NCBI RefSeq assembly: GCF_000003605.2
Contig: NW_003122410.1
Location: forward strand, 323,179 to 351,842
DNA length: 28,664 nucleotides
Source: Saccoglossus kowalevskii
Taxonomy: Eukaryota; Hemichordata; Enteropneusta; Harrimaniidae
Reading direction: 5' to 3'
This document shows positions 7,601 through 25,639 of this stretch, piece after piece. Under the pieces are notes generated by a model. It made no database searches and was not told the origin of the DNA. It saw only the letters and a program-made list of their open reading frames with translations. Each line of letters opens with the position of its first letter. The stretch's first letter is position 1. A program made the translations under genes and the position numbers.

Positions 7601-9987
7601 TACAGTAACCGAGTGACTTACGCATAACTTTGTTGACCGACATGGTCTTGTAGTTCGAACATATTCGAATATGCAAAACTTCTATGAGAAGCTGCTTTGT
7701 GCAGTGATAAGTAACGCGTATCGAACTGTGCGGAGTTCGAGACTGGGTATGACACGACTCAAGCGGATCAATGGGTGTTCGCCATATAGAACACGTGACC
7801 TGCAATTTTTCTTCCAATGCTCGTATCATTGTTTACACGTACCGTCCTCTTCTTCGCATTATTATGCATGTCTGCCTTTTATAAAAGAAGGTACACACCA
7901 TGTTCATTCATTAAAAACATAATTCACTAATCTAGGGTCAATATTGAATATTTGCTGTGAAATACAGAAACTTTAATAATCGCTGTTGTGTGGTCACTCA
8001 TGATGCGTTCTGTGCATATTTAAACCTAGTTCGATGAAGGGCGAAATAATCCTACCGGCAATAGTGCAGTTATCGATGCGTTGTTAACAACCAACTTCCC
8101 GGGTGACTCTGATTTTGAATAATATTTGTATAGCCGACGTCAGGGTTCGAAAATCAAAAAATAGGTTCGGTCAAGCAAAGTTTTTAATATGTAAATGGGA
8201 AATTTCGTTTATTTCTGTATTCATAAACAATTTTCAAAACCATCACATAAATATTCCGTACCATTTTACACTAAAATAATGATGATGTGGTCATTTGGCA
8301 CTTGGCAGTCAGCTACGAATACCACAAATAATGTTCGCGAACGATAAGTCTGGTACGCGGCCATTCTCCTTCCCAGAGTTCCTTGTGGTTAGATCACCGA
8401 AAGTATCTCTGCAATATATATCGATAGCTGATTTTTCTGTAAATGCACTGTCAAGGGTGAAATAGTTATAATTTACAAAAGAAAATAATTTCCTCGCGGA
8501 ATAACGGTTATTAAGGTGTTACTCGGTTCATCAAACTGACCGTCCTGTTGATTACCAGACAAAGAAATATAAAGAAACGAAAGCACTTAGGGGTATTTAC
8601 GGCTACCTACTGTCCGTTGGGTTTGAGAATCGAACACCTGCATGGCAATGTTTTGTTGGACGTCCTTGAAAGTAGTGCCACTGTAACGCATCAACCAATC
8701 AACGACAAGTATAATATCGCGTGGTGGCAGAGATATATTCGTAACAATAGAACTCTGCCTGGGAGATTGGTCAATCACCTCACTACGCACGGCCATTTTC
8801 CGCGGTTGTTTCATTTGAAACCGAACTAAAAAAAGTGGAAAAAACGTATGTGCCATCCGAACTATGTATTAATGTCAGATTTCAGTACAAACGTAAATAC
8901 GAATCATTTTTTCGCGGACTATGTTTTGCAAAGTATTGTTATTATAGTGAAATGGCGCAAGTTATACACCACAACCGGGAAGAAAAACGTTCTGTTAACG
9001 TATATAGTTGGGAAAGAAACATTAAAGACTAATTTCACTGAAAGGAGTCTCCTAACATTTCCGTTCATCTTGTATTATGGTGAATATTTCAATACTATTT
9101 CTGGCTTGAACGGGTTCGATTTTCCGCGTCAAACAGACATAGAACACAAAGGTTCTAGTAAGTTTATAAAGTTAGTCATTTATTGTACAATATACTGCTA
9201 TAGCATCTAGAAAATGTACATAGGTATATAGGTTCAGTGTGTACTGTCATTATTTCGGGTGTACACCATTTCCTGCATATAATACTTTTCTGCATATTCT
9301 ATTGCTGCATATTCACTGCATGAATTGTTGTATGTACCTGTTAAGATATAGTCAAAGAAATGGTCATTTTCATTTTTTTTACATACCAAAGGAAACATAG
9401 TTTGAAATTCTAAGGGGTGTATCAATAATAAAAAAAATAATCAGTGGCGTTTATCAGTTGTAAGAAAAACTTCCTTTTGTATCTCCCCTTCAGAATCATT
9501 TTACAAAACTTGTTATACCCTTCCCAATTCTAAATTCAGTCTTAGTATATACTATTATAATATAAATAAAATTAATACTGCTCTTGGGAAAGGGATACAA
9601 AAGTAATTCTTTCTGTTGTATCTTCTTCCACATTATAGGTTGGGTAAAATTTTGCAGAAATGTTATTAAATGACATTTTAGTATTTTTCGTGTGCTTTGT
9701 GTGTTTTTAAATTATCAATCACAAAATATGATGCAATTTATGCAGCTCCTATATAGACCAATATTTATTGATGCTGACATTGTGCTGTGGTCTGATGCAA
9801 TGTTGCCATTGGTGAATATTGGCATAGGAGCTTCATAAACTGTAACAGTGACAAAGTACATGTATTTTACATTGGTGCATTTGTTACTGTAGGAAACATT
9901 CATAATGAATGCCTTGGATGCCATACATGACAAGTTTTGATTGGTCTATAAAAGGATACCACCACTTTCATCGCAGGCCACATCCAG
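7601..9987. other. Intergenic, no gene assigned
   Basis: Contains short open frames, the longest being 120 codons from an ATG at 8848, with no recognisable domain or repeat content. A CpG-containing patch lies around 8590-8820. I cannot support a gene here. Confidence 0.4.
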
Positions 9988-10266
9988 ATGTTTTACTGGA
10001 TGTTGAAATTGAACATAATAACATATGATCCAAGTTCAATGTTAGTAAAAATGCCTCCTTTATGTAGAATACCTGGTCAGACAGGGCTGTCAATCAGACT
10101 ACCATCAAACCAGAGATTTCAACGTGGACAAGTACGTGACCGACCTGGTGGTGGGGCGGAACTTACATGCTTATATTACTTGAAGTACCATGAAATACCT
10201 AGAAGAAACATGGTAATGGAGGTATTTAACATATGTAGACAATTTCTGACTGATGAAGAACTGTAG
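9988..10266 (+). other. Unassigned 92-codon open frame upstream of the transposase
   Basis: The frame begins at ATG 9988 and ends at TAG 10264-10266. It has a basic, Gly/Arg-containing middle (RFQRGQVRDRPGGGAE) and no known domain. A possible acceptor (CTTATCTTCTGCAG ending at 10404) lies just before the transposase-like coding. This frame could be a 5' part of the same element or chance. Confidence 0.2.
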
Positions 10267-10429
10267 CGTATTGCCTTGTAAAAGGTAAATTTGCATTTTG
10301 TTATTAATCTATGAATTAAAGGGTTTTTAGCTGTAATTTGTAATGGGTCATTATGATTATTCCAACTGCAAATCTCATTGCCTAAATTGGCTTATCTTCT
10401 GCAGGTCTAACCATGACTGATTCATGTGA

Positions 10430-13400
10430 TCATCAATATATGCAACACCATATTGTCATTATGAGAATTTGAAGAACATGTGTAGAGTGTTTGGGAAAAG
10501 AATAACAAGCAGACGGAAAACTGAATGCCGGAAATACAAGATGGACTTGAAGGGTTTTTCTCTATTAAAATTGCAGATGATAAAAGTAATGTTCACCCAA
10601 ATGTTGTTTGTCAATCATGTGTTGTTGTTATTATTATTCGCTGTAGACCGAAGTCTAAACATGGAATATTATACCAACCTAATGTAAATGTTCATGTATT
10701 TGTACCTCACACTAGCCTGAACTGTGTTGTGTGCTTCAGCAGGAAGCGGGAACGTCCAGCTCTACGGCCACACCACCAAATGTTAAACGTCCCATCAATG
10801 AGGGCAATGACAATGAGTTACTGGTAGATTCTAATATTGAAAATGTCATGTCTGAACACACATTAGACACATGTGTCAAGAATATAGTACAGTGTGTTCA
10901 AGATGGTAATATGTCTTTAACACAGCTAATGGATTTAGCATTCACTCTTGGTTAAATCTCAAGCAAATGCCGTTTCTGAAGACTTCCTGTCTTTTAATCA
11001 AACATATGTTAATCTAAACTACTTGATTAATATTGACCCTGCAATTTGGTACAGTAACCGTAATCCCATTGTTTGTGCTTTCATTGATGGTGTTTCAAAT
11101 GACACAGAAAATGAATCATTGACATCCAAAAAAGTGTATTCTAAATTAAAAGCAGTGGAACCAATTTATCATGTAAATTTGACTAGGGCTATTTCACCAT
11201 TTGCATTTTCTGAAAGTCTGGTGAGTTATGCTATTTCTAACAGTAGAACTGTTGTTCAGTTACAAAGTGCTTCTCAGCCCACATGTACATACCCAAAAGT
11301 GCTTCAGGCCCAGGCATCTGAGCAACTAGTCTTGCCACCTGGTGATGTGGTGGTAGCTTTTGATAATGATCAAGTTGTAGGCAAATCTTATCGTGTTCGA
11401 GAAAATAACAAAGTTGAAGTCAGTGTACTCACAAGCATATGTTATGCACAGATTGATGCTGAAGGCACCAAAACTCAGATTTGAAACCAAGGATATGGTT
11501 CAACTATGAAAATTTTCCAAATGAAATTAAAACACTAATCTATGTTATATGTAGTAATGACTGTGATGAGTTTTTGAAAAAAAAATATCGGAAACGCATT
11601 ACAATGAATTGTTTATCCATCTAAGCAAAAGATTGGAAAAAGTAGTAAGTGAACAAATAAGTAATTCAGGAGTTTACACCGATAAAATTGATGAAATTGT
11701 TAATGAAAAACGCACTGCCCTCACTCACAAATATTGCCCATCTTGTCATTCCTTGGTGGGGAAAAAATATGTCCAATGTTAATATGAAGGAGGCTGCTGA
11801 GAGATTATTAGAGACGTGTGGCCACCCTGTTCAGAATACTAGTAGTGTTTTGGTAGAGACAGTAACTGAAATCAGACTAGACTTTATGCCTGTTGAAGGT
11901 AAAGATTGTTTTCAATCACAGTTTACTTTGATGAATCCCACTAGCATGAATGGTAGCTCATTCAGATATGACCATGTTAGCACTAACCACCCTGCCTCAC
12001 CACCACCTGTTGGTGTTCGAATCCAGTATTTGTAAATCCAAATTCTCATAAAAACATTGTAACAGTTCTCAGGCAAATTGGTACAACTGCTGGAATTAAA
12101 ACTTATGGAACAGGTTCTAGATATTGGCTAGCTGTATATATGGATGGGCTACCATGCATGCTTGCACATAAAGTTATTCGCAGTGTACACAAATGTGTTC
12201 TGTGTTCAGAGTCCTTTTTTGGCAATGATGAATTTGTGAAGCACTGTATTGTATCCCACAATAGTGAACATGCAGACTTCGTGTTAGAATTTGACTGGGT
12301 TTTGCTACGAATTGGCCCTGGGCACATGGAAATGAACATGACAAAATCATTTTTTGAGCTAAATTAGGAGGTTTTCATGTGCTCACTAGTTGAGATCATG
12401 GGGTTTAAATCAGAAAGGGCTCAGAAATATGCAAGGAAATGTTCAGAAAACCACATGGGCATTATCGGAATTTTTTTTTGATGGAACCACAGATGAGCTT
12501 TTGATACCCTATGTAAGAAAGTGTATGGGAAAAGGTTTTGATGCATCTGTAAAGGGGTTCTTCAGATTTTTAAATGAAGTAAAAGATCCAAATTATATGT
12601 ATTTAGCAGAACAGTGCTTCACATATTGTCAAGCAGTGGTAAATTACCGTGCTGGTGTGAGACGCAATAATGTGGATTTAATGAATGCAGCCAGATGTAA
12701 ATATTCCCCAGTCTTTCATGCTAGGGTGCACCCTAAATACAGATTTATTGACATTGCTGCTATGACAGACAGGTTACTGTATCAAAGTGAACTTGGTAAC
12801 TGTTTTGATAGGTGTGAGTCTGTATCTGTCTCTGGTGATCCCAGTAAAGGTGAAGGTTTAGATTTTGTACTAGAAAATTTTAACAAATTGAGTACATCAT
12901 GGATTACTGGTATGCCAACCACATAGATGTGGATAAACATTTTTCGAAATTTAAGCAAATTGTACAAGCTCAGATTGGCCACATTTCAAAATATGGGTAT
13001 CTCTGACCCTTCCAGTGGAAAANNNNNNNNNNNNNNNNNNNNNNNNNNNNNNNNNNNNNNNNNNNNNNNNNNNNNNNNNNNNNNNNNNNNNNNNNNNNNN
13101 NNNNNNNNNNNNNNNNNNNNNNNNNNNNNNNNNNNNNNNNNNNNNNNNNNNNNNNNNNNNNNNNNNNNNNNNNNNNNNNNNNNNNNNNNNNNNNNNNNNN
13201 NNNNNNNNNNNNNNNNNNNNNNNNNNNNNNNNNNNNNNNNNNNNNNNNNNNNNNNNNNNNNNNNNNNNNNNNNNNNNNNNNNNNNNNNNNNNNNNNNNNN
13301 NNNNNNNNNNNNNNNNNNNNNNNNNNNNCAGATTGGCCACATTTCAAAATATGGGTATCTCTGACCCTTCCAGTGGAAAAAGTGGTAAACGTCCCAGTCA

Positions 13401-13740
13401 AATTAATGAAATAAATGCCTGGCGAAGCTATCTGAGAAATGCAAAATACTGTCTGGATCCATTTGTAAACAGACCGCATGTAAGTGTGGATGGTAATCCA
13501 CTAGATAGCAATCTTGTGAAGTTTACCTCTTTGGCAATGCAAAAAAGAAACAAATTCATAGAATTGAAATTTCTTGGAAAGCCAGTATCAGATGACCGAA
13601 GTGGCAATTACCCTGTATTTGTCACTCCAGCTGAGTCATGTAAATATCATGATATCAAAAATCAAACTAAGAGTGTCATTGAACAACTTGTGTTGGCAAA
13701 CTTAGATTGTATATCAGATACCTACAATATACAGTTCTGA
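10430..13740 (+). pseudogene. DNA-transposon transposase with RAG1-like N-terminal zinc module (N-RAG-TP-like), degenerate
   Basis: The coding sequence is continuous but crosses frames. The first module (10481-10734) has CRVF-G, then VHPNVVCQSC, then FVPHTSLNCVVC. This order and spacing match the CxxCG...HP..fC..C...W.PH...C.vC pattern in the N-terminal, non-core part of vertebrate RAG1. One cysteine is Phe here. Later landmarks are FDNDQVVGKSYRV (first Asp at 11362), KYCPSCHSLVG, a C-x2-C-x12-H-x4-H finger (about 12192-12260), FDWVLLRIGPGHMEMN (about 12289-12336), RRNNVDLMNAARCKYSP, and GEGLDFVLENFNK. These are not RAG1 core. They look like a separate large transposase with candidate acidic catalytic residues. 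Lesions are frame changes near 10540, 10745, 10950, 11480, 11590, 11770 and 12012, TAG at 12365-12367 (probably a former Trp), a shift at the T9 run 12471-12479, and TAG at 12924-12926. It ends at TGA 13738-13740. Some shifts could be introns or sequence errors, but not all. No terminal inverted repeats were found by eye. Confidence 0.75.
12971..13380 (+). other. Assembly gap (306 N) flanked by an exact 52-bp duplicate
   Basis: The 52 bases at 12971-13022 are repeated without a mismatch at 13329-13380, either side of 306 Ns (13023-13328). Overlapping the two copies joins the reading frame of 12927-13022 directly to the frame ending at 13740, with no frame change. This is the mark of contig ends that overlap but were not merged. 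The true gap is probably zero or negative in length. Confidence 0.85.
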
Positions 13741-13787
13741 ATGGAGTAACGAGATCAAAAGATCTAAAAGTCTGATTATATTGATTT

Positions 13788-14882
13788 CTATAATGAAAAA
13801 TGTACCCTTGCTTGGGCAGGTGGTAGAGATTCGGGTATGGGTTCTCTTGTGAATGCAGGAATGAGCTCACTGGTGGATACTTGATATGTAGGTATGGTTT
13901 CACTGACGGATAGGAGGGATGCAGGTATGGGTTCATCACTGGTGGACGGTAGAGCTGTAGGTATTGGTTCACTGGCAGGTGGTAGAGATTTAGGTATGGG
14001 TTCACTTGTGGATGGCTGAGATGCAGGTATGGGTTCACTGGCAGGTGGTAGAGACTCGGGTATGGGTTCTCTTGTGAATGCAGGAATGAGCTCACTGGTG
14101 GATACTTGATATGTAGGTATGGTTTCACTGACGGATAGGAGGGATGCAGGTATGAGTTCATTTGTGGATGGCTGAGATACAGGTTTGGGTTCACTGATGA
14201 ATGGTTGAGATGTAGGTATGGGTTCACTGATGAATGGTTGAGATGCAGGTATGGTTTCACTGGTGGACGGTTGAGATGCAGGTATGGGTTCACTGATGAA
14301 TGGTTGAGATGCAGGTATGGTTTCACTGACGGATAGGAGGGGTGCAGGTATGAGTTCACTTGTGGACGGCTGAGATACAGGTTTGGGTTCACTGATGAAT
14401 GGTTGAGATGCAGGTATGGGTTCACTGATGGACGGTTGAGATGCAGGTAGGGGTTCACCGATGGATAGTTGAGATGACATTGATTGGGGTTCACTGGTGG
14501 ATGTGCAAGGTGATGACTGGTCAGTGGTAACTTCTTCCTCGTTTCCTAATATGTGTGTATTACATGGTAAAAATGATTCCATGAATTGCCTAAACTCTTT
14601 CTGAGGGGAAGGTTTAACAACTGGAACTGTGCCATCAACACATCTGCTGTCGCCTTTAGTTATTTTTAACCCATGTCCTTCAAAATCAGATACCAGATCA
14701 TTAGATCCATAGTATCGTGACATTCCACCATACTTTACTTTAACAAACACACTTGCACCAGTCAACTTAATATGAATATCATGTGCAGCACTCAATATAA
14801 CGTACTGCGGAAGCAATAGGCCTTGTGTCTGGAACGCAAGCGATAGTGCGCCATCAACGGAGCTGATGTGCGTAATGTGATG
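13788..14882 (-). CDS. Unknown protein with Ser/Pro-rich 11-residue C-terminal repeats (5' end incomplete)
   Basis: The open frame runs on the minus strand from just after a stop at 14883-14885 to TAG at 13788-13790. The first ATG in frame is at 14723-14721, but 53 open, protein-like codons precede it (including LLLPQYVILSAAHDIHIKLT), so an upstream exon or a non-ATG start is possible. The roughly 130 residues before the repeats are non-repetitive, with VFVKVKYGGMSRYYGS, KITKGDSRCVDGTVP and QKEFRQFMESFLP. The last 220 or so residues are about 18 units of the type SEPIPASQPSI. The protein is probably disordered there and rich in Ser, Pro and Glu. I do not recognise the family. Its stop lies 47 bp from the transposase stop, tail to tail, so it may be a second gene of the same mobile element. 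Other frames are also open across the repeat because the unit is 33 bp. Confidence 0.5.
   Translation of the reverse strand, partial: HHITHISSVDGALSLAFQTQGLLLPQYVILSAAHDIHIKLTGASVFVKVKYGGMSRYYGSNDLVSDFEGHGLKITKGDSRCVDGTVPVVKPSPQKEFRQFMESFLPCNTHILGNEEEVTTDQSSPCTSTSEPQSMSSQLSIGEPLPASQPSISEPIPASQPFISEPKPVSQPSTSELIPAPLLSVSETIPASQPFISEPIPASQPSTSETIPASQPFISEPIPTSQPFISEPKPVSQPSTNELIPASLLSVSETIPTYQVSTSELIPAFTREPIPESLPPASEPIPASQPSTSEPIPKSLPPASEPIPTALPSTSDEPIPASLLSVSETIPTYQVSTSELIPAFTREPIPESLPPAQARVHFSL
13816..14490 (-). repeat. 33-bp coding minisatellite with a nested 225-bp-offset duplication
   Basis: About 18 diverged 33-bp units, with GGTATGGGTTCACTG as a + strand core. Superimposed on this, 13816-13929 and 14041-14154 (114 bp) are identical except for one base, so a block of several units was duplicated recently. 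The 33-bp period keeps the minus-strand protein in frame. Confidence 0.85.
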
Positions 14883-14904
14883 TCACTTCTGGTTGCGCGA
14901 GGTG

Positions 14905-14912
14905 TGACGTCA
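14905..14912. promoter_or_regulatory. CRE palindrome TGACGTCA near the 5' end of the minus-strand gene
   Basis: A full CREB/ATF-type site, with a variant TGATGTCA about 25 bp closer to the gene. The surrounding 14820-14940 is CpG-richer than the flanks, as a promoter would be. No TATA box is evident. Confidence 0.3.
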
Positions 14913-14939
14913 CTCCATCTTCAAGGCGTCACAACAGAA

Positions 14940-15720
14940 ATGTAAGTGGTCTTTCTTAGTGTGGTAAATTGTGGAAATAATATTCATTTTCTATTGATCT
15001 CCGCTTCACTTGGTATATTTATCAACCTTAATACATCCAAGATTTGAATGAAGGTGGTTTGGTGTGGTATATCATTTGAATTTCCTATAATGTGTTATGT
15101 CCTCTAAAATGGGTTTTCTTCCTACCAAGATTATTATGTTCACTGAAAATTATAAATAATAATAACAAGGAATTAGTTACTCCATTAGTACGGTTACAAG
15201 GCAATATTGATAAAATGCATGAGCAGGCCATATTATTAGCACGTGGGCTGGCACGAAAACCCTTTTTTCAGTTTATTTTTATTTGTGCCATAATTCATTA
15301 TTTTTCAGAGCACCAAGATCAACATAACTTCATGTACTTTGTTACATCCCAACTTTATTCAGACACCCTGTTTATTTGCGGCAGCTGTTATACAAGAAAC
15401 GTTTTGGTTGCTTGCTTCACTCATTTATTTGATGCTAATGAATTTCTCGTCTCTTTACTGTTATCATTGTTTCATGTTTGATGAGACGTATGTTTGATAC
15501 GAAATTCACTGACCTCCTAACCATCCATAGTAAATATAGTGACTATGATGGAGGAAACGTGTGTGGGACGAAAGTTCGAATCAGCAAGCAAAATGACGCA
15601 TTTATTAGTATGTAGTAACAGACACTATAATATCGCTTGACTCTGTAATTATAATTTTCCAAATCATTAATTACACATAGGAAGAAGATGTAAAAAAGCC
15701 TTACCTTTCTGTTACTTCCG
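14940..15720. other. Intergenic, with one unassigned 129-codon frame
   Basis: A plus-strand frame (15092-15481) is open but starts at GTG. Its middle (LVRLQGNIDKMHEQAILL) looks like an amphipathic helix, but the ends look random. It could be a decayed exon of the nearby mobile element. No family is recognised. Confidence 0.3.
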
Positions 15721-15742
15721 TGTCCATCTCAGCCATGTGTGA

Positions 15743-15813
15743 AGGTCATACTAAGGGTCACAGACTCGTTCCGATTCATAATCACCCACAATGCATTTAA
15801 AGGTCAAAGGGGT
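15743..15813 (+). promoter_or_regulatory. Nuclear-receptor-type half-sites upstream of the FAXDC2-like gene
   Basis: AGGTCA (15743-15748) and GGGTCA (15755-15760) are direct repeats spaced by 6. AGGTCAAAGGGGT (15801-15813) resembles a DR1 element of the HNF4/PPAR/RXR kind, with a degenerate second half. They lie 130-200 bp before the start codon of a lipid-enzyme gene. This is inference from motifs only. Confidence 0.35.
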
Positions 15814-15940
15814 TGCAGCCTCATTTTGAAACAATTCCCAATTGGGAAGTGGGTTATCGTGTTTTCCAATCGAACTGTTGGAGCTACGTCACAAGACGTT
15901 CCACGTTGATAAGACGCGCACCACTGTACCACGTATTTCT

Positions 15941-18900
15941 ATGGGCTCTGAGCGCGCTGCTGAGGAACGCGGAACGCCGAGTGAAGAGCCGGTGAAAATC
16001 CGAGAAAAGAACAAGAACTCAACTTTGAAGTAATCATGAACAATCAAATTTATATACGTTACACACGCAAGGGTTATCTAATCGTGTCAAATCGGTAAGA
16101 AACTTGATTAAGTACAGATATAATGGCGCACTATCTAGTTTGTAATTTAATACAAATATTTTTTTTTAATATTTCAAAGCAGAAGGTATCACTTTTGTCT
16201 CACGCCCTTGATATAATCAATAGATTATTTTTTATTGGCAGAGCCTCAATGTTTGACACCATAGTCGTGTGGAGAAACATCACTAGGTTAGTTTTGTATA
16301 TCATGTGCAGTTATTTCACTCATTTCAACGGGAATTGCTATTGTAGTTCATATATATTTATGCGACAATTTATAAGAATTGTTTAACATGTAAGTCAATA
16401 TCCAAGCAGTATTTTGATAATATACTACATGAAGACAATAATGTAATCCATTTATTCCCTAAACATAACGAATCGTGGTACAGTTATTATGTTGAGTGCA
16501 ATTCTGAAACAGCTGTTTAGAATGTTATTTTGTTTTGTTCATTAAGCCCCCTTGGCCTTTCTGATCATGAACCTTGTAGATCCACGAATCACAGCAAGGA
16601 GCTAATAGTCACAGTCAGAACTGTGTGTGAGTGGACCTATAAAAAGGTGATTATAATGTCACTAAACACTGTACACTGTATCCGTCGAAAGATCCAGTGA
16701 AGCTGCAAGTTCCACTGCTAGGAGATCGAAACACGCATTCGAGTAACAAATCACAACAATGACATTTATAGAACACTAATTAAACGCCAAATTGAGAAAA
16801 AATTCTAGAAAACTATGTCAAAGTACAGAGCAGAGAAAAGAATAAAGAAATCCTATGAAAAAACTTACATGTCACGTATTTATTATATGTGTTTGTTAAC
16901 ATGCGTTCTGTATTGACGTATATTATTACATAGTCCCTCATATATTAGCATATAGTCAATTACCATTTGAAATTTAAATAACCAGCCTCGGTGCACATGT
17001 AAGCATAGAACAGTAGAGTATGCACATGCGCAGTTTAGACGACAGTGCACGGATATATTACTTGGTGTTGCCGCTTCATTGTTGTAAACACGATGAAAAT
17101 CTCAATGTCAAGCCACGGATTATTTGTGGATACATGGGACGGCATTTATCAGTTAACAGGCAAAAGCGATGTCGTAATGTTTTGCTTAGGTACGTATGCT
17201 ATTTGAATGTGACACCACAGTACATTGTTTGAGAACACACAATTTAGCAGCCACTGTATCATTTGAGGTAAAACTTATACATCACGGACAACACAGATCT
17301 GTTTTGTTGTATTGTGTCCAGTTTTCATTCATATTCAATTAAAACAATTCAACAGAAATATTTATTCGACAATTTGTCTATCATGTGTTTTTTGCTTTGT
17401 CAGGGTCATGGTTGGCGGCTTTTGTAACATATTGGGTCGTTAGTATACCACTACTGTGTGTGGATTTAACGCACAGACCTAGATTCATTTACCAGTATAA
17501 AATGCAGATGGATAAACCGGTAAGTGGTATATTTATATCACTTCTCTATATATTTATATATCAACGCTATATGTATATAAATAGTGTTTTTTTTTCAGAG
17601 AAAGAGTTGAAAAATAAAGAAAAAAAACTGATATCTGAGACGAACTTCCAGAACAACGCGTTTGTTTTTTTATCTGCTATGAATTGTATGATAATCGACC
17701 TCAAATTGTATACATGATACATGCCAATAGATAATTTTCCGCTCAATGAGATCCCATGTTATGCGTGAAAACAAAGGTCGTAGCGTCGTAGTGACGTCAA
17801 GACATTGCGCGGGATTCGCAAACGCGGAAGTATTTTTGAGGTATTTTCACGTTTTATAGTGTTTGTACACGCATTTGATGATGAACAATTTTGATAATGT
17901 AAGGGTAGCTCAACGACATATTACCCACTAAAAGATCGGTATGTCGATATTGAGTTATGGGAAAATAAATTCAAGTTCAAAATCAAAATCAAAATCAAAT
18001 CATTTGATTTTTGCATTCGGTCCCCGCTTTTCACACGAAATCTCGCAATGAACGGAAAATCGATTATTGTATATTGATTTTTGTAGTTCAAAGAGGTATG
18101 CTATTATAATAATGGTTTCGTTTCAAAAATGAAGTATCAATTCAGAATCTAGTATCACCAATTTTCATAAAGCGTTTAAGAGTTAATATAGTTAAATCAA
18201 TTTGAACAGATCTACACACAAATCTAAATTACTTTACCGACATTTTAACGTTTTTACCGCTTTTAATTTGTGCCAAACCTGATCTGAATAAGTCCAAAAC
18301 CCTGAAAAATAAAAATTCGCCGTGTGAAAATGATATTATTCGCTTAATATTTAATCATAATCAGAATAAATATTTACTCTAGGATTCTATTTAATTAACC
18401 AACTTGAATAAAAGCTCGTCATCATTTCAGAAATATATTGAGTTCAAAACTAGTAGCTTCGTGATGAGTGGCCTTCGCTGTAGGTAGATTTAGTAGCGGG
18501 TAGCTTTCCCGAGGAGTAGAGCTTTGTCACAGTAACTCGTCCTTCAATCGTTGTTGAGAATTAAAGTTTTATGTGTTTTTAACAACTGGTGTTATTCTGG
18601 GAATACCATCCTTAGGAGCTGCTCTGGCAGGTTTTTTTAAATGCGACTTTTGCTCTGATAATGTCCGTAATGTTATAGATCAAGAAACATTTGACCATTT
18701 ATAGAATAGACATTGCATCATGTATTCTTGTTATACTGCTTAGTGACATAATGTAAGTAATGATATTATTGGTGTTGAAGAAGGATAGTTGAATATTGTT
18801 TATTGAAATTAATAATCCCCAGAACATTTTTCCAATATAGATAAGAATGTTGGTATCACCCACCTCTGAAAACAAACTCTTAATACCACGCTGACGCGTT

Positions 18901-21900: not shown

Positions 21901-23987
21901 CATTCACTGCACTGAAGGGTTACTGACGAAATATTTTATAATGCAATTTCCTTTCTGTTTTTTTTTTAATTTGTAGTATTGCAATACATTATACATATCT
22001 TTATTTTATTGCTGGAAAAAGATGATTTCTTATCCATATTGAAAAATATTGTTCCGGGAAATATTAATTTCAATGAACAATATTCAACGCTTTTGTCTGT
22101 ATGTATGACACTAAGCAGTATAACAAGAATGCATGATGTACAGCCCGTTCTAGAAATGATCAAATGTCCCTTGGTAAGACACTAGAGGACAATAACCAGA
22201 GCAACTGCACACATCATAATGGCAAATAAATCAACAACATGTATGGTATTCCCATATTAACGCGTCTTGTTCATAACACTCAAAACATTTATTCTCCACT
22301 CCTACAAATGGGCCAGTTACTGTGAATGATACTAGGAAGGCCACTCACCACCAAAGCCGCTAATCGCGAAGATACTGGTATAAGGTAGCAATAATAGAAG
22401 GATTGTATTCGTCACACCCAAGAGCTTGGGACATACGATGGCACATATATACAATCGGTCGGCTACTTGAACAAACATTGGTCAACTACTCGGTCCGCAA
22501 CGTATACCTGAAACAAATGTTCTGCTACATGAAATTCTATATCAGCGAGCTGATTTTCAAGTAGCGGAAATGTTTGTTTTCAGGCAGGAAAATGGAACTC
22601 AATCTCAGATTTATTCTCATATAACAAGATCTATTCAATTAATCGTAAATCAAAATTTAACATGTTAAGGAAGGAAGGATAGTTAGTTAGTTGAATTACT
22701 GAAACCTATCGCTGCGATATAAGTGCAACAAAGGGGTCCGTTCCTAAGCTATGGTAGAAATATGTATATCACTATGAACTTGAAAATACGCCTTACTTGT
22801 AATTGCAATTATGTATGTTTTGACTTTTGTGAATTCCAATCAATAGAATGAGATATGTATTCATAGGTTATGTACTCTAGGTTTCGCTGTATGTCTTATC
22901 TCTACTAGATCGAAGTTGCTAAACTCAAGAAGTTATTCAAGGTGGTAATTCTCAACCAACTGTTTTATGCCCCTCCAATAGCGTGGGTGTACTACGTCAG
23001 CGCTGGGTGGCGTGGGTGTAGTGTCAGTAGTAGTGACTTGCCGAGCGGCGGAAGGATACTGTTTGATTTACTCGGTTGTCTGATCTTTGTTGAAGTCACA
23101 TTTTACTACTCGCACTGGTAAGCACGCTTTCATTGATCGTGATATCAGTTAACGTCACTGGTGAGCGTCACGGGCGAGAGACCAGTCTTTAGAAAACTAA
23201 CCATTTTAATCGGCACCCTGAATGTTATCATTAAACAATCATTGAATATCCCCATCTTATAAGAATAATGTTTCTCCACAAGGGCATTGCATCACCCATT
23301 CCTGTTTAAACACGTACACAAACTTCACCATGAATGGACGGCTCCTATTGGTCTAACGTGCATCTATGCTCATCCAATCGAATTCGTGTTCTCAAACTTT
23401 ATACCTGTGGTTGGTGGACCCATTGTGATGGGGTCTCATCTAATGGTACATTGGATGTGGTTAGTGATTGTAATGTATGCCATTACTTTGAATCATAGTG
23501 GTTATCATTTTCCGATTACTAGATCACCTGAAAATCACGACTTTCACCATTCGAAGTGAGTAAATAATTTTGTTTTTGTTTTCACAGTTGATATATATGT
23601 CAAGATATATGTCATGTGGTGTTTGCGATTTGATATGAAATGCGATTTAATTCATGTCATGTCAGATACGAATTCGGTGAGATGTAATGATGTGATACGA
23701 CGCGGTATGATGTGATATAATGTAGTGTGATGCGATGTGATGTGATGTGATGTGATTGAATATGAACTGACATGACACAATGCGATGAGATGATAACAAC
23801 CACTGAATTCTCTTCAATACATTTGTTTCCTAGGTTCAACGGCAACTATTCAGCTACTGGAATAATGGATTGGTTACATGGCACTGACGCCATTTTTAGA
23901 GACACCATCGCCTTCAAGCGACACAAGATACTGTTTGGAACAACCCCAATGTCTAAGAAATACCCCGATACTAAAACTTTGCAGTAG
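15941..23987 (+). CDS. FAXDC2: FAXDC2-like fatty acid hydroxylase domain-containing protein, 7 exons, 320 aa
   Basis: Coding exons are 15941-16029, 16242-16286, 17113-17189, 17404-17519, 22909-23117, 23283-23555 and 23834-23987. Their sum is 963 nt, all junctions are in phase and all introns are GT..AG. The protein is a multi-pass ER membrane di-iron oxidase of the fatty acid hydroxylase / sterol desaturase superfamily. Histidine boxes are HWALHH (178-183), HKLHH (191-195) and HDFHH (264-268), plus HSGYH (250-254). Hydrophobic segments lie at about 72-92, 120-141, 158-175 and 224-248. Exon 4 has VDLTHRPRFIYQYKMQ, the family's VD.TGKP....Y.IQ signature. Exon 7 has GIMDWLHGTDAIF, matching the vertebrate C-terminus. 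Human FAXDC2 is about 333 residues. The start at 15941 is the first in-frame ATG, with weak context at -3. The first membrane helix of vertebrate FAXDC2 is not evident near residues 30-70, so the 45-bp exon 2 may be imperfect or a small exon may be missing. Substrate is unknown; FAXDC2 has been linked to sterol metabolism. Confidence 0.85.
17760..17850. promoter_or_regulatory. CpG-dense patch with CRE site in intron 4
   Basis: About ten CpGs in 90 bp within a CpG-poor intron, including a perfect TGACGTCA at 17792-17799. It could be an internal enhancer or alternative promoter, or the edge of a mobile element. Confidence 0.25.
17991..18011. repeat. Perfect 21-bp inverted repeat
   Basis: AAAATCAAAT, one C, then ATTTGATTTT. 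It follows a short TCAAAA tandem run. Cruciform-prone; no function evident. Confidence 0.7.
18711..18850 (-). repeat. Inverted repeat, left copy (pairs with about 22020-22145)
   Basis: Its reverse complement matches 22020-22145 at roughly 80 percent by eye. Shared stretches include the segment reading CACTAAGCAGTATAACAAGA on the strand of the right copy, and ATTAATTTCAAT. The copies lie about 3.2 kb apart within intron 4. They may be two insertions of one repeat family or the ends of one element. Confidence 0.7.
19612..19835 (+). repeat. Diverged tandem duplication, about 125-130 bp unit
   Basis: The order of motifs GGAAGACATCTGAAAACAAACATACATG, then CCTAAAA, TACATGTTTCA and TTTGTATATA recurs from about 19740 with substitutions and small length changes (abridged here to key words: GAAAACAAACATACATG and TACATGTTTCA). 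No coding content is evident. Confidence 0.5.
20098..20145 (+). repeat. Echo of exon 2 and its acceptor inside intron 4
   Basis: TAATAGATTCATTTTATATT, then GGCGGAACCTCAATG, resembles the branch/acceptor region and first codons of exon 2 at 16215-16250 (AATAGATTATTTTTTATTGG, CAGAGCCTCAATG). The AG acceptor is lost (GG) and the downstream sequence diverges. It may be a relic of internal duplication, or chance. Confidence 0.3.
21225..21320 (+). repeat. Fragment related to the 7439-7600 repeat
   Basis: Shares the ordered motifs TTTTCAAAG..GCGATGATAAA, then TCTAGTGGAAACAC, then TTTTAAAATGTGTG with the repeat near 7.45-7.55 kb. Just after it, 21325-21355 also resembles 547-580 (ACATTRTATCTAATYGGTGG). 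Confidence 0.45.
22020..22145 (+). repeat. Inverted repeat, right copy (pairs with 18711-18850)
   Basis: See the left copy. The short open frame here (21979-22185) and the one on the minus strand at 18699-18965 share a SSITR-HD peptide only because of this repeat, so neither is taken as a gene. Confidence 0.7.
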
Positions 23988-24135
23988 ACAAAAACAGCTG
24001 TATACAACTTTAACATCTTCAAGAAATGTTTTTATAATGTTAGCGATCACTTGATCTTAGATTTGTCCGCAATAACGTTGTTGTAAGATTGCAGTTGACA
24101 TTTATGACATTATGTTGTTTCAATAGAGAGGGTCA
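22540..24135 (+). repeat. Segmental duplication, copy 2
   Basis: Direct repeat of 650-2490. It holds exons 5-7 of the intact gene. Homology ends near 24135, exactly where the 63-bp minisatellite begins. Confidence 0.85.
23690..23760 (+). repeat. GTGAT-type pentanucleotide repeat in intron 6
   Basis: Counterpart of the array at 2049-2115, with different unit order and length. Confidence 0.7.
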
Positions 24136-24137
24136 TA

Positions 24138-25296
24138 AGTATCAAAATAGTGGCACATATAATTTAGTTGTCGGGAACTGTTATACTTCACTATAGGGAT
24201 GGTACCAAAATAGTAGCACATATGATTTAGTTGTCGGGGACTGTTATACTTCACTATCGGGATGGTACCAAAATAGTGGCACATATAATTTAGTTGTCGG
24301 GGACTGTTATACTTCACTATAGGGATAGTACCAAAATAGTGGCACATATAATTTAGTTGTCGGGGAGTGTTATACTTCACTATAGGGATGGTACCAACAT
24401 AGTGGCACATATAATTTAGTTGTCGGGGAATGTTATACTTCACTATAGGGATGGTACCAAAATAGTGGCACATATAATTTAGTTGCAGGGAACTGCTATA
24501 CTTCACTATAGGGATGGTACCCAAATAGTGGCAAATATAATTTAGTTGCAGGGAACTGCTATACTTCACTATAGTTATGGTAACAAAATAGTGGCACATA
24601 TAATTTAGTTGTCAGGAACTGCTATACTTTACTATAGGGATGGTACCAAAATAGTGGCACATATAATTTAGTTGTCGGGGACTGTTATACTTCACTATAG
24701 GGATGGTACCAAAATAGTGGCACATATAATTTAGTTGTCGGGCACTGTTATACTTCACTATAGGGATGGTACCAAAATAGTGGCAAATATAATTTAGTTG
24801 TCGGGAACTGTTATACTTCACTATAGTCATGGTACCAAAATAGTGGCACATATAATTTAGTTGTCAGGAACTGCTATACTTCACAATAAAATTGGTACCA
24901 AAATAGTATTATTCTGTTGTCTGTTATTATTCGATATAGGATTGGTACAAAAATGGTGGCATGTATTATTCTGTTGCCGGGATCTGTTATTATTCGATAT
25001 ACGATTGGCACAAAAATAGTGGCATGTAATATTCTGTTGATGGTATCTGTTATTATTCGATATAGGATTGGTACAAAAATAGTAGCATGTATTATTCTGT
25101 TGTCGGGATCTGTTATTATTCGATATACGATTTGCACAAAAATAGTGGCATGTAATATTCTATTGTCGGGATCTGTTATTATTCGATATACGATTGGTAC
25201 GAAAATAGTGGCATGTATTATTCTTTGGTCGGGATCTGTTATTAATCAATATACGAAAGGTGCCAACATAAGAGTGTGCATTCTTTTGTTGTCACA
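24138..25296 (+). repeat. 63-bp minisatellite, about 18 units in two subfamilies
   Basis: Units start at GGTACC-like sites every 63 bp. Twelve units run without any length change from 24138 to 24893 (subfamily A, with ACTTCACTATAGGGAT). After a shortened 50-bp unit, five more full units and a partial one follow at 24944, 25007, 25070, 25133, 25196 and 25259 (subfamily B, with TGTTATTATTCGATATA). Because 63 is divisible by 3, long stop-free frames appear on both strands (for example 24599 down to 24120, and 24917-25330). They are artefacts of the period. Confidence 0.92.
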
Positions 25297-25639
25297 TGAC
25301 CCCCCAACAAATCATAATTCCTTTTGTTAATGTACTGATCATTGCATTATCAGATTCCCGGGGAATTATTCGAAATTGTGCATAGTGAAGCCATACCTAC
25401 CTTGCCAAAACCAATGTATTGTATGCATTGCGCGTTGTGTTGGCCACATTGTTTCTAACCCCTGCCAAATGGGCTTCAGCTTTATTTCCCACTCTTTATC
25501 TCCTCCACTAGCTGGCTAGTTTGCGGGATTTGTCCACCCATGTTTTGTGATATATGCTAATACAGTTGTGTTGTTGCAATGGATGGGAACTGTTTTATTC
25601 TATACTTCATCTAGAAAGCAATCTAGTGCCCTCCCAACA
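25297..25639. other. Spacer, nothing recognised
   Basis: Non-repetitive DNA between the minisatellite and the minus-strand coding remnant. No open frame of note. Confidence 0.4.

Follow-up and report, generated by a model that had tools for sequence, protein, structure and literature searches.

A RAG1-N-like zinc module beside a transposase-like protein in Saccoglossus kowalevskii: probable remnant of a DNA transposon

We report here that a stretch of 28,664 nucleotides from the hemichordate Saccoglossus kowalevskii (contig NW_003122410.1, positions 323,179 to 351,842 of the forward strand; hereafter the window) probably harbors the remnant of a decayed DNA transposon, in which a zinc module of the "Chapa" type, related to the N-terminal part of RAG1, is joined to a putative transposase that, judged by our searches, is of neither the RAG1-core/Transib nor the P-element kind. 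The copy is dead, having frame changes, stops and one lost cysteine.

The module comprises about 85 codons at 10481-10734 on the forward strand, and reading of the sequence places one frame change inside it, between the first and the second motif. The motif order given in a preliminary description of this DNA, made from the sequence alone, is present: CRVFG in frame 2 (10481-10524), followed in frame 1 by HPNVVCQSC and PHTSLNCVVC (10549-10734). The frame-1 piece matched Pfam RAG1_imp_bd (PF12560) at 8e-07 (29.4 bits, cut-off 23.3) over profile positions 149-212 of 284. RAG1 chains were also the top matches of the module in the PDB, at 0.0022 and 0.0063 (21.2 bits to RAG1), and the kinship with the RAG1 N-terminal family that had been proposed at the outset was thus borne out by profile search. 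A shorter trim of the module matched RAG1_imp_bd at 3e-06 (27.4 bits), and a 97-residue read-through that includes the frame-2 piece scored slightly below the cut-off (8.3e-05, 22.7 bits), so the score varies with trimming. Judged by these profiles, the window module is related to the non-core region of RAG1. It is very improbable that cysteines and histidines fell into this arrangement by chance in noncoding DNA. The broken frames, and a first motif in a frame different from that of the rest, would fit such an origin, but the Pfam match still stands at about 3.5e-05 after multiplication by the 44 listed frames. Moreover, none of eight shuffled copies of the module (nine were made) matched RAG1_imp_bd, the best chance match to any Pfam family being 0.006, and the pattern HP..CxxC..H..CxxC, which occurs once in the six frames of the window, was absent from all 200 sequences of the same length generated by a first-order Markov model.

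As in RAG1 (PDB 21wb, 6oem and 9jpu), HP..xCxxC and PH...CxxC follow each other in the same order in the window, with CRxxG in line upstream. Unlike in RAG1, no RING region was seen in the window element, no RAG1 core was detected, and the first CxxC is CxxF. This last replacement had been noted before and is correct in the sequence: CRVFG sits opposite CRICG of RAG1, with Phe for the second cysteine and in a different frame from the remainder of the module. Here "LKNMCRVFGKRITSR" of the window aligns with "LRHFCRICGNRFKSD" of RAG1 at 1.3 bits only, and the first motif by itself has almost no support from the sequence comparison. The three N-terminal zinc motifs are well conserved in most of the RAG1-like proteins newly found in PMC7204232, according to that paper. 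Structure prediction of the module from its single sequence was unusably poor (mean pLDDT 37.5).

Transposase-like pieces adjoin the module at once on the same strand. From 10716 to 13737, overlapping forward-strand frames form a chain that is readable as one long protein with frame changes and stops; with the first motif included and the stop as its end, this amounts to about 970 codons after subtraction of an N run and one doubled flank. The chain begins with a linker between the module and the transposase-like part (10716-10952, frame 0), which has no Pfam match and no RING finger by eye. The next piece (10939-11481) matches only itself in the genome and contains AFDNDQ, whose Asp at 11362 is, by eye, a candidate for the first catalytic residue. 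It is followed by a piece with CPSCHSLVGKKYVQC (11570-11779, frame 2), with Pfam matches below threshold only, and by a piece at 11661-12032 (frame 0), which has no Pfam match and looks coding, by eye, in its later part only. The piece at 11987-12364 contains, by eye, a candidate second Asp at 12143 (YMDGLPC), a C2H2-like finger from 12194 and GPGHMEMN from 12314, and its matches in Pfam and PDB are weak C2H2 matches only. A further piece at 12390-12923 continues the previous one from about 12480, again by eye. Inside the transposase-like part, 306 N at 13023-13328 are flanked by 52-base copies (12971-13022 and 13329-13380). Because these flanks are identical, the N run is probably an artefact of scaffold joining, probably without missing sequence. 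The C-terminal end lies at 13330-13737 and is closed by a stop at 13738-13740.

The preliminary description had also held that this downstream region lacks RAG1 core motifs, and our searches agree. The RAG1 core (PF12940) had no match in the downstream pieces scanned with Pfam, in which a distant core could escape since the pieces are broken, and PDB searches of four downstream pieces returned neither RAG1 core nor Transib chains. Nor was a P-type domain detected, with no TNP-like Pfam match in the window pieces. Because Pfam, and PDB for four pieces, name no transposase family for the downstream pieces, the label "transposase" is drawn from layout and is tentative. The two Asp residues (11362 and 12143) are candidate RNase H residues assigned by eye, and structure prediction of one transposase piece from a single sequence was too poor for use (mean pLDDT 41.4). 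We infer that the pieces once formed one frame and encoded a transposase. The C-terminal part would then have been a cut-and-paste enzyme of the DDE/D RNase H type, cutting at the element ends. The N-terminal module would bind zinc and may have aided DNA binding, self-pairing of the enzyme or nuclear entry, a role suggested by the position of the module and by the family name, which refers to importin binding.

The remnant could be a Chapaev or Chapaev3 (CMC) element with a decayed Chapaev transposase, which is compatible with the transposon reading preferred here and would name its superfamily; we regard this as possible, at clearly less than an even chance. In PMC4411706, the Chapa domain is placed in Chapaev, Chapaev3 and RAG1-like transposons, with a truncated RAG1 N-terminal form in TransibSU, and is stated to be in no other known transposable element. 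The Chapaev and Chapaev3 elements described there resemble the window element in having a RAG1-N-type zinc module on a transposase that is only distantly related to Transib. Chapaev hallmarks are CAC...GTG termini and target duplications of 3-4 bases (PMC4079192). Neither was found in the window, where the search was confined to 9000-18000, and by eye no RING finger follows the module, though just two Chapaev subgroups carry one. Within the same limits, beyond which the ends may lie if they are not lost, local alignment of 9000-10480 with 14850-17000 for terminal inverted repeats scored 26 at best (maximum of 60 shuffles, 32), and an 18-base ungapped terminal-repeat scan with a target-duplication check gave nothing that exceeded 20 shuffles.

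N-RAG-TP is reportedly a sea-slug element that goes back to Panchin and Moroz in 2008. It resembles the window element in that PMC8355894, PMC2996935 and PMC13337447 present it as a transposable element carrying sequence similar to the N terminus of RAG1. In two of these sources (PMC8355894, PMC13337447) it is the element that donated the N-terminal part of RAG1. That the window contains N-RAG-TP or a close relative would also agree with the preferred reading as a transposon remnant, and we give it the same tentative standing as a Chapaev origin. Compared by description only, the Aplysia element differs from the window element, as it is said to consist entirely of RAG1 N-terminal-like sequence (PMC8355894), whereas the window has a long transposase-like part.

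As far as the genome search shows, there is one decayed copy. The preliminary description had proposed a genome-wide search for intact relatives. A similar module exists on a second family, and four transposase pieces, the C-terminal one taken from 13366, each match themselves alone in the 572-Mb genome, counts that are lower bounds. A PF12940 profile search of the whole genome gave 0 candidates, a result of little weight since no control genome gave a signal either. The corresponding PF12560 search at E <= 0.001 was insensitive, finding nothing and missing the window module itself. Four pieces and one alignment had no relatives in viral_contigs, nor had the single piece tried in genome_contigs; these collections are viral and prokaryotic and the results carry little weight. 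Upstream of the module, 9223-10074 is repeated on another contig (C1690:20624-22257) in blocks of 69-85% identity, and an open frame of that copy leads into N over 4.5 kb or more. We considered this contig as an empty site and rejected it: the likeness ends at 10074, before the module, a 40-residue piece past this break showed no likeness to C1690 above shuffles, and the other side runs into N. Because the likeness stops there and N lie beyond, the repeat provides no element boundary.

The module search of the genome returned one weak second place, C2949:1059201-1059374 (L003; 31% identity, E 0.0756), inside a 357-codon open frame that carries CRLCGG, HPPFICGTC and FHSHSLACKVC. The L003 protein had 22 matches in the genome at E <= 0.1, itself included and some of them pieces of one copy, and 15 at E <= 0.001; seven of the 22 overlap the module (residues 31-117). 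Loci of this second family (L003, L004, L043, L048, L050, L051 and L052) lie on contigs C2949, C1630, C3768, C4066, C3427 and C1737. The match L043 falls within a frame of 610 codons, in which an RNase H domain of the P-element type was recognized (Pfam TNP-like_RNaseH_N, 1.1e-27; P transposase 6p5a, 0.0048). P-type sequence was present in all five stretches examined around the matches, including that of L043, and in four of the five (L048, L050, L051 and L052) likeness to the L003 module lies upstream of it on the same strand. The L049 stretch has P-type sequence without a module part. L004, the stretch that contains the intact 357-codon module frame, has only the middle part of L043, with no RNase H part within 10 kb, and among the second-family loci no single intact protein with both the module and the P-type part was seen, frames often being broken. 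A narrow literature search found no P-type transposase described as carrying a module of this sort. This association is the fresher point compared with the window element, and its modules may equally be called ZAD.

Aligned pairwise by hhalign, without a database, with a two-row profile of L003 and L048, the window module gave a probability of 94 and E 1.3e-07. In the PDB, a five-row profile (A3), in which the window module is combined with four second-family module pieces, picked out three RAG1 sequences (2e-06 to 8.2e-05), the next match being at 0.27; a two-row profile of second-family modules without the window row (A4) had RAG1 in third place at 0.13. Against RAG1_imp_bd, the best row of A3 scored 1.8e-06 and is the window row by elimination. 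Scanned singly, three of the five rows match, namely the window trim at 27.4 bits, L003 at 21.1 and L048 at 16.7 (cut-off 23.3); the L051 and L052 pieces gave no match at E <= 1. For the whole L037 frame (361 codons, L048 copy), RAG1_imp_bd was not among the matches at E <= 0.1. By these comparisons, the window module has good links to both RAG1 and the second family, and the link between the second family and RAG1 is weaker.

The two families share a similar zinc module, and neither tblastn nor hhalign matched the window pieces to the P-type protein of the second family. The L043 protein did not match the window in tblastn at 1e-3. Since tblastn at this threshold, with the L003 and L037 proteins, missed even the window module, it is too blunt for a distant transposase likeness. 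Seven window pieces, the module included, gave E 0.15 to 0.48 with L043 in hhalign of single sequences, compared with 3.6e-32 for the positive control.

The second family also bears on whether the module is a ZAD (zf-AD, PF07776) finger, with a likeness to RAG1 that reflects shared zinc-finger chemistry. The CRxC ... PxxxCxxC layout of ZAD is common to the L003 module, which, when trimmed, prefers zf-AD (4.9e-06, 27.1 bits, cut-off 28) to RAG1_imp_bd (2.7e-04). The untrimmed L003 frame, however, puts RAG1_imp_bd slightly ahead, at 1.1e-04 (22.4 bits, a little short of its cut-off) versus 2.2e-04 for zf-AD (21.9 bits, cut-off 28). The window module itself matched RAG1_imp_bd in every Pfam scan and zf-AD in none. 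In addition, the window match takes in PH...CxxC, a motif that falls past the zf-AD stretch of L003 (residues 2-59 of 101). We consider the ZAD explanation unlikely for the window module.

The preliminary description further proposed that the window bears on how RAG1 acquired its non-core half. Any special bearing is weak, as the copy is single and decayed, the module is about as similar to the L003 frame (21.9 bits) as to RAG1 (21.2 bits), and the module is already tied to Chapaev transposons through the published Chapa domain (PMC4411706). Alone, the window copy is little more than one further carrier. Published answers on the origin of the non-core half invoke one donor transposon (N-RAG-TP) or a Chapaev-like ancestor. 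The presence of modules on what seem to be two unlike transposases speaks for shuffling of the module rather than for a special bond of the window element with RAG1. It is conceivable, though in our judgment a little short of an even chance, that zinc modules like those of RAG1-N and ZAD are mobile parts that have been joined by unlike transposase superfamilies of one genome, the window type and the P-element type. If true, this would exceed the published limit of the Chapa domain to Chapaev and the kin of Transib, and capture of the RAG1 N-terminal part by shuffling would become directly testable. Should several unlike transposases, the P type included, carry related modules, the donor need not be a single element, and the route of the module could be read from a module tree set against a transposase tree.

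Downstream of the remnant, a convergent open frame on the minus strand (13788-14882, 364 codons) has no Pfam match. A 33-base minisatellite (13853-14476) with SEPIPASQPS-type repeats makes up much of it, and some 300 bases outside the repeats, near 14480-14796, resemble protein-coding sequence by eye. As a candidate RAG2-like partner this frame was set aside, given that the 33-base unit keeps it open, a dispersed repeat takes in its first 30 residues and it lacks a Pfam match. The dispersed repeat (14797-15084, about 290 bases) matches 19 other places in the genome; 18 of these matches have one end at 14794-14797 and a variable other end, as in 5'-truncated retroelements. Elsewhere in the window, 730-2492 and 22544-24137 form a direct duplication, about 21.7 kb apart, in blocks of 80-97% identity. 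A piece of a fatty acid hydroxylase (23269-23559, 8.7e-12) lies in the second copy, and an array with a 63-base period occupies 24013-25307.
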